64,000 nt of DNA. Source: Halolamina sediminis. GTDB taxonomy: Archaea > Halobacteriota > Halobacteria > Halobacteriales > Haloferacaceae. The position numbers and the translations under genes were made by a program. Location of the stretch: the NCBI RefSeq assembly GCF_001282785.1, contig NZ_CVUA01000001.1, positions 1,488,001 to 1,552,000 on the forward strand. The letters run 5' to 3'. How positions within the stretch are numbered: position 1 is the stretch's first letter; the number at the start of each line of letters is the position of its first letter. This document shows positions 18,479-20,280 of the stretch, piece after piece. The notes under the pieces are model-generated. The model did not search any database, had not been told where the DNA came from, and saw only the letters and a list, made by a program, of their open reading frames with translations.

Positions 18479-18505
18479 ACTGGGGCGAGGGGCCGGCGGT
18501 GGCAA

Positions 18506-18564
18506 AGGGCTGCCGGTGCCGGTGCGTACAGACCGGCAGCGACAGAGGGCTGCCGGTGCCGGTG
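18506..18564. repeat. Short direct repeat upstream of pdxS
   Basis: A 19-bp unit, AGGGCTGCCGGTGCCGGTG, occurs at 18506-18524 and again at 18546-18564, a 40-bp period. The spacer contains ACCGGCAGC, partly the reverse complement of the unit. It lies between the divergent starts of the DUF1405 gene and pdxS. Confidence 0.7.
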
Positions 18565-18611
18565 TGCCCTCCCCGCCGTAGCTCCCGGCCGAACGGGCCG
18601 AAGCCACCCCC

Positions 18612-19566: not shown

Positions 19567-20280
19567 GTCGTACTTGATGTGGGCGTTCGGTTTGGCTGAA
19601 AGTGCGCGGCAATACTCGATAGTCTTGGCTACTGAAATAGCGACCGCAACAGCATCTCGGTGCTAGACCACTTGCGACCGCAGGGTGCCGGACACAGGGT
19701 CCGGCACAGCACCGAATCCCCACCCCTCCCCCGCGCGGCGGCGACCGGTGCCGTCATCAGAAATCTCCGATTTCTGATTGGCAGACGAGAGCTTCGCTCT
19801 CGTCGACGGCCGCGCGGCGTCCACCGCTACCGCACCGCTGTGGCTGTCGGCGCGCGACGTGAGCAGGGCGAGACCGGCGGTCTCGCTGGCCGTGCGGGCG
19901 ACGCGTGGGTCGCCCGCACGACGCCTCCGTGGGCGAACGAGCGCGCGGGGTCCTCGCGAGTGAACCGAGCGAGGGCACGAGAGAGCTTCGCTCTCTCGGA
20001 GGACGACCGACTGAGCGAAGCGAAGGAGGGAGTCGGCTGGGGAGGATTGAGGGCTGTGCGGGGCGGTGCTGTCGCAAGAGGTCTAGCTCACTCCGCGGTC
20101 CTGTTCGTCCTGAAGCCAGCAAACTCCGGGTCTCCGGTACAGAATCGAAAGAACGTCAAAACACTCTACAAACTCTAGAGATCCCACAATTTCTAGAATG
20201 CAAGTGAACTCTACCCTGTTTCGACCGCTCACAACGTACTCCCGAAAACACCACTACCGACCCGCAAACATCCTTCGACC
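19567..20280. other. Long intergenic region with clustered perfect hairpins and an AT-richer tail
   Basis: No convincing gene is present over about 715 nt; open frames here are Arg-rich artefacts of GC-rich DNA. The first 430 nt hold at least six perfect hairpins. The last 180 nt (about 20100-20280) are clearly less GC-rich than the surroundings and include CTCTAGAG and TTCTAGAA palindromes. This could be a decayed insertion, a structured RNA or a recombination scar. Confidence 0.6.
19685..19998. repeat. Array of six perfect hairpins
   Basis: In order: 19685-19707 (9-bp arms, GTGCCGGAC), 19756-19778 (9-bp, ATCAGAAAT), 19784-19804 (9-bp, GACGAGAGC, TTC loop), 19868-19886 (8-bp, GCGAGACC), 19891-19920 (12-bp arms, 6-nt loop) and 19978-19998 (9-bp, CGAGAGAGC, TTC loop). 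All stems are fully paired. The TTC-loop units and the GCCGGAC stem match the palindromes inserted in leuC. Confidence 0.8.

Follow-up and report, generated by a model that had tools for sequence, protein, structure and literature searches.

What are the six perfect hairpins that follow one another downstream of pdxS in Halolamina sediminis? They lie within 314 nt of non-coding DNA (19685–19998) of the window, the 64,000-nucleotide stretch analysed here, and the initial annotation had offered a repeat family expanded at a hot spot, a structured RNA or a recombination substrate as explanations. All six are present, with stems of 8–12 bp and loops of 3–6 nt, and the GAGAGC-TTC-GCTCTC sequence in two of them and the GCCGGAC/GTCCGGC stem in one had been described correctly. 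With perfect hairpins (stem of at least 8 bp, loop of 3–8 nt) counted across the window, 2000 dinucleotide shuffles of the 314 nt yielded on average 0.116 and at most 2, which rules out an origin by chance, as had been claimed; for stems of at least 9 bp, five were observed against a shuffle mean of 0.026. The excess is local because the window as a whole holds only 34 perfect hairpins, compared with 19–27 in five shuffles.

Anatomy and copy number of the repeat

All six hairpins fall within a single copy of a non-coding repeat of about 470 bp, which extends from about 19615 to 20107. The limits originally drawn around them were thus too narrow, and they do not form one set: one is a core hairpin of the repeat, and the other five come from three inserted hairpin modules (Table 1). 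The ends of the element are mutually inverted, as nucleotides 1–43 of the query used in the own-genome search match the right ends of other copies on the opposite strand. Inward from the end follow H1, the C-rich tract, H2, a middle part, the G.A-laced hairpin and the right core. Beyond the inverted ends, copies have either an unrelated type-B unit or a tandem series of the 39-nt unit, from one to about nine units long. Copies measure about 270–600 bp and carry up to about ten hairpins. One locus (L033, 1264–1599) has 8.6 tandem copies of the 39-nt unit at the element end, and other short tandem units are found at right ends in L034 and L035.

Table 1. Parts of the repeat copy downstream of pdxS (window coordinates)
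Feature	Position	Strand	Remark
Six perfect stems	19685–19707, 19756–19778, 19784–19804, 19868–19886, 19891–19920, 19978–19998		from the perfect-hairpin count; numbered 1 to 6 below
Degenerate outer copy of the 39-nt terminal unit	19615–19645	+	resembles unit CAGCARCTCGATCGTTGGCAACTGRGACAGCRACCG, which is tandem in other copies
Left terminal unit; core inverted terminal repeat CTTGCGACCGCA at its end	19640–19682	+	aligns inverted to right ends of other copies
H1, core hairpin 1	19685–19707	+	perfect hairpin 1; 17 distinct arm pairs
C-rich tract CCCCACCCCTCCCCC	19718–19732	+	complementary to TGGGGAGG within the right core
Core hairpin 2 (H2), 5' arm and loop	19733–19753	+	interrupted by module 1; uninterrupted relative in L026 (GCGCGGCGGCGACCGGTGCCGCCGCGC)
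Twin-hairpin module 1	19754–19806	+	perfect hairpins 2 and 3; inside H2 3' arm, CG on both sides
H2, rest of 3' arm	19807–19815	+	
Twin-hairpin module 2	19866–19920	+	perfect hairpins 4 and 5; variable between orthologous copies
Hairpin module 3	19949–20003	+	holds perfect hairpin 6 (19978–19998); optional insert according to alignment of copies
G.A-laced hairpin	20002–20034	+	Watson-Crick pairs alternate with tandem G.A/A.G pairs; tip GCGAAGC
Right core TCGGCTGGGGAGGATTGAGGGCTGTGC	20033–20059	+	66 own-genome copies at ≤3 mismatches
Right terminal repeat with type-B outer unit	20063–20107	+	outer unit CTCACTCCGCGGTC...

That the hairpins belong to a repeat family had been suggested correctly; the proposed hot spot is not supported, since the element occupies at least 70 intergenic sites in the 2.84-Mb genome. 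A search of the genome with 19640–20110 gave 122 matching pieces at 40 sites (the first 40 of 224 candidates scored), which range from full-length copies at 89% identity to copies that lack internal parts. The right-core pattern was found at 66 places with at most 3 mismatches (reversed-pattern control, 0), and after the loci had been fetched the number of sites was 70. Solitary 39-nt units were considered as separate loci and discarded, nearly all of them being further copies of the element. The spacing of sites along the chromosome fits random placement (CV 1.11, P 0.13) and is not regular. No replichore bias in orientation along the chromosome, which would have supported lagging-strand insertion, was seen; the uniform plus orientation in the lists of right-half matches looks like an artefact of forward matches being listed first. 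In one draft genome (G005), contigs C1 and C3 end inside element copies, and copy counts from drafts are therefore probably too low.

The inserted modules have distributions of their own. Module 1, flanked by CG on both sides, sits in H1, in the 3' arm of H2 or, inverted, in its 5' arm, depending on the copy. Its first hairpin is a widespread small repeat in its own right, because matches to it, with stems that covary (TCAGAAATC/GATTTCTGA, TCAGAACTC/GAGTTCTGA and CCAGAACGC/GCGTTCTGG), were found in 112 of 292 haloarchaeal genomes. Module 2 is present or absent between orthologous copies (alignments L013 and L005) and was detected in 16 of the 292 genomes, also inside an element of another family (L175). 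Module 3 is an optional insert immediately 5' of the G.A-laced hairpin.

Conserved pairing and the probable structured strand

In the core hairpins the sequence of the stems varies while pairing is maintained. Nineteen distinct arm pairs of H2 showed 94% Watson-Crick cells, as compared with 65% (maximum 80%) when the 3' arms were re-dealt among copies. The corresponding values for 17 distinct arm pairs of H1 were 91% and 77% (maximum 85%); H2 is the cleaner test because the H1 sample had been pre-filtered for pairing (at least 6 of 9 positions). The whole element folds better than its shuffles on both strands (z about −6.2 to −6.6), and therefore energy alone cannot tell which strand is the structured one.

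The right half is a separate structured repeat that is far more widespread than the whole element. Its pattern, GCGAGGGAYGA-N15-45-TCGGYTGGGGAGG, occurs in 115 of 292 Halobacteria genomes (about 40%) and 39 of 77 genera, with up to 105 copies per genome and none for the reversed-pattern control. The middle of the right half is a hairpin that cycles through Watson-Crick, G.A, A.G and Watson-Crick pairs. Hairpins of two classes were taken from the listed matches to this pattern. Among 34 distinct hairpins of 10 genomes in the 29-nt class, 87% of cells at Watson-Crick positions are paired, versus 48% after re-dealing (maximum 61%); in the 21-nt class (14 distinct hairpins) the values are 96% and 60% (maximum 83%). 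The G.A positions are nearly invariant in both classes.

Wobble pairs point to one of the two strands. At filtered loci, with G.T counted as fitting, 18 G.T-type cells stood against 2 of the A.C type; fairer support for a strand comes from the unfiltered 29-nt and 21-nt classes, which together hold 19 G.T-type cells and at most a few of the A.C type. Because G.T-type cells outnumber A.C-type cells, the purine strand of the G.A-laced hairpin is probably the structured strand. GNRA tetraloops are the usual loops in RNA. Among the 54 pattern-fitting hairpins at loci that were read directly, 46 have GNA triloops, and variants with a 4-nt loop are hardly ever GNRA. The window copy matches the hairpin pattern exactly and carries the tip GCGAAGC, which a passage in PMC6582339, citing Hirao 1994, describes as an extraordinarily stable mini-hairpin in the form of DNA. 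Based on the GNA rather than GNRA loops and on this tip, we infer that single-stranded DNA is favoured over RNA as the structured molecule. Of the initial proposal of a structured RNA, the structure is thus borne out by compensatory changes, with loops that favour single-stranded DNA over RNA as the molecule.

In a second type of hairpin, both arms of which carry GAGNANCGCA, all 30 of the 30 positions in a set read by hand and selected by eye covary. A systematic set proved uninformative overall and had the two types mixed in it; the eight arm pairs in it with a 3' arm that fits GAGNNNCGCA gave 15 of 16. Covariation of this second type is suggestive.

Tentatively, and with considerable doubt, we propose that the right half identifies a family of structured mobile DNA that extends across the haloarchaea. 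Its key would be a one-strand hairpin of period 4 (two covarying Watson-Crick pairs and a tandem sheared G.A pair) with a GNA triloop, which some enzyme might read in the form of single-stranded DNA, and the Halolamina elements would be composites built on it.

Conservation between species and competing explanations

Comparison with a sister species (G006) bears on the age of the copies. At 32 of 33 comparable sites, those of the own genome with both flanks present in the G006 sequence, an element occupies the same intergenic position in both genomes, in a sample of 800 kb of G006 that was fetched nearly all around its elements and is thus biased to element-bearing regions. Chance sharing of sites should be rare because only about one gene pair in 11 has an element in these stretches (59 with, 580 without). 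Orientation is the same at 27 of the 32 shared sites and inverted in place at five. Internal cassettes differ between orthologous copies, and H2 of the G006 ortholog is often a wholly different hairpin that is still perfectly paired. The median number of paralogs in the own genome (of 69) that score closer to a copy than its G006 ortholog does is 17.5. The right core is present in 62 and 70 copies in two species and in 0–5 copies in the other sister species searched. At the pdxS site, G006 has an element between pdxS and the same downstream gene, and three further genomes (G002, G004 and G005) have none. These data suggest that the insertions are old and that copies later exchanged sequence with one another and became inverted via their ends. 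The idea of a recombination substrate was accordingly right in part, as far as the inversions at five of 32 shared sites and the swapped cassettes are concerned.

We consider it likely that the window copy is a non-autonomous, non-coding palindromic mosaic element of haloarchaea, similar to BIMEs and BOX elements, which spread in trans, probably as single-stranded DNA, and was then rewritten, flipped and invaded in place. Its mobility, the enzyme, the single-stranded step and any function are inferred. Copies would have spread before the Halolamina species separated from its sister, mobilised in trans by an enzyme that recognised one strand by its structure, probably in single-stranded DNA form. 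Thereafter most copies would have stayed fixed in position while being rewritten by gene conversion between copies; recombination between the inverted ends may have flipped some of them, and REP-like hairpin modules may have invaded them. Lying outside genes and mostly beyond gene ends, copies may have persisted by doing little harm.

The conserved positions at 32 of 33 sites count against a mobile element, as they would fit a useful one too. A structured non-coding RNA or 3'-UTR element that is retained because it serves the host, for instance in the stability or regulation of transcripts, and is repetitive only incidentally would agree with this retention between species, with the one-strand structure (G.T type 18 versus A.C type 2) and with the bias of sites to gene ends in the own genome. 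There, the gene pairs around sites are seldom divergent (4 of 51) and preferentially convergent (22 of 51), on crude gene calls, and in G006 the trend is not significant; the avoidance of divergent pairs also supports the mobile element. Further agreement comes from another haloarchaeal genus (L195–L224), in which the right half, near-identical in many species, lies 60–80 nt past the stop of radB (named from its translated gene end), and from a reported PATE-class repeat that is transcribed (PMC10544981). Nevertheless, we regard such an RNA as rather unlikely. The right half is missing at the radB site in about half of the 30 species, copies face either direction relative to the neighbouring genes, these genes are unrelated, and across haloarchaeal genomes no constant gene neighbour of the right half was found; plasmid copies in Halorussus and Halobaculum, too, lie between unrelated genes. 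The loops are GNA triloops (46 of 54) and not GNRA tetraloops, and Rfam covariance models gave no credible match to a known RNA family. Moreover, a T-rich terminator-like stretch separates the end of pdxS from the element, and therefore a terminator role is not needed there. Downstream of radB in L204, what looks like a near-empty site has a GTCGCGG repeat at its junction.

Inverted ends, non-coding sequence and a dispersed, patchy distribution would also be expected of a classical MITE mobilised by a DDE transposase through recognition of its terminal inverted repeats. This is improbable in our view, as the ends are of two unrelated types and the strong structure of one strand is unneeded for DDE transposition. 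No parent transposon with the ends of the element was seen because nearly all 72 matches to the 39-nt unit lie at element copies, and no clean target-site duplication could be defined in the species comparison because intergenic DNA is too diverged between the species. Least probable by far is a site for chromosome organisation or recombination with a fixed host role: the conserved positions and the resemblance of the tandem 39-nt units to binding-site arrays would suit it, but spacing is random, orientation shows no pattern, and most sister species have few copies.

Relation to known repeats

A transposase associated with the ends of the element was found neither in the own genome nor at Y1 loci of the genus. 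The only Y1 (IS200/IS605-type) genes of the own genome are broken remnants (2716873–2717231 and 2554893–2555084), and motifs of the element occurred at none of 19 Y1-transposase loci of the genus, a set to which TnpB-only elements do not belong. An IS200/IS605 parent was ruled out on the ground that no element motif lies near Y1 genes, and a phage or viral origin was discarded for want of a match in phages or viral contigs.

We judge the element to be a variant of palindromic mosaic repeat outside the MITE, PATE and RAYT-linked REP families because it lacks defining features of each. It has the terminal inverted repeats, non-coding sequence and many dispersed copies of MITEs, but not ends in common with an autonomous transposon. 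The PATEs, SMRs and MITEs of Haloquadratum (PMC3119063) resemble it in being haloarchaeal, palindromic and free of a transposase, and SMR-A inserts into the palindromes of larger repeats as twin-hairpin module 1 does. By contrast, PATEs are defined by the absence of terminal inverted repeats and by near-terminal palindromes that are common to IS605-type transposons, whereas the ends of the element are inverted and our searches revealed no link to such transposons.

BIMEs, REP elements and REPINs of bacteria (PMC2817692, PMC3116915) are likewise dispersed, extragenic, modular and palindromic, with compensatory stems and avoidance of promoters, and movement as single-stranded DNA structures by a transposase in trans has been proposed for them (PMC2817692, PMC3116915). 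The element shares their high-copy palindrome doublets, but it is much larger, resides in an archaeal host, and has long inverted ends, tandem 39-nt units and G.A-laced helices; neither a linked RAYT-type nor an intact Y1 transposase was found in the Halolamina genome. With the BOX elements of Streptococcus (PMC3049150) it has in common a fixed end plus optional inner modules, insertion of other repeats and apparent dormancy in position. The sequences are unrelated, and the inner modules are different hairpins inside stems in the element and tandem copies of one box in BOX. Module 1 resembles in part the CGTC-tagged REPs (PMC3733652), which have stems of 8–9 bp with an AT foot, form inverted dimers, have no known transposase and can sit within palindromes. 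It is an inverted doublet with CGTC 5' of hairpin 1 and GACG 3' of hairpin 2, its stems measure 9–10 bp and stem 1 has AT at its foot, but its loops have 3 nt instead of 4–5, hairpin 2 lacks the AT foot, and in the other haloarchaea examined the position of the tag differs by one base.

No earlier description was found by name or literal sequence in searchable text, which covers few subscription papers and no supplements. Dozens of copies of a repeat conserved in structure and not in sequence are present in many haloarchaeal genomes, and the repeat appears to be undescribed in the searchable literature. As a natural test case, it lends itself to studies of how single-stranded DNA is structured in archaea and of how dispersed non-coding copies evolve in concert in polyploid cells, and to a search for the missing mobilising enzyme; in annotation, its DNA can mimic structured RNA genes or terminators. 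Upstream of pdxS, at 18500–18570 of the window and in L050, there are tandem GGGCTGCCGGTGCCGGTG-like repeats, of which G006 has more copies.
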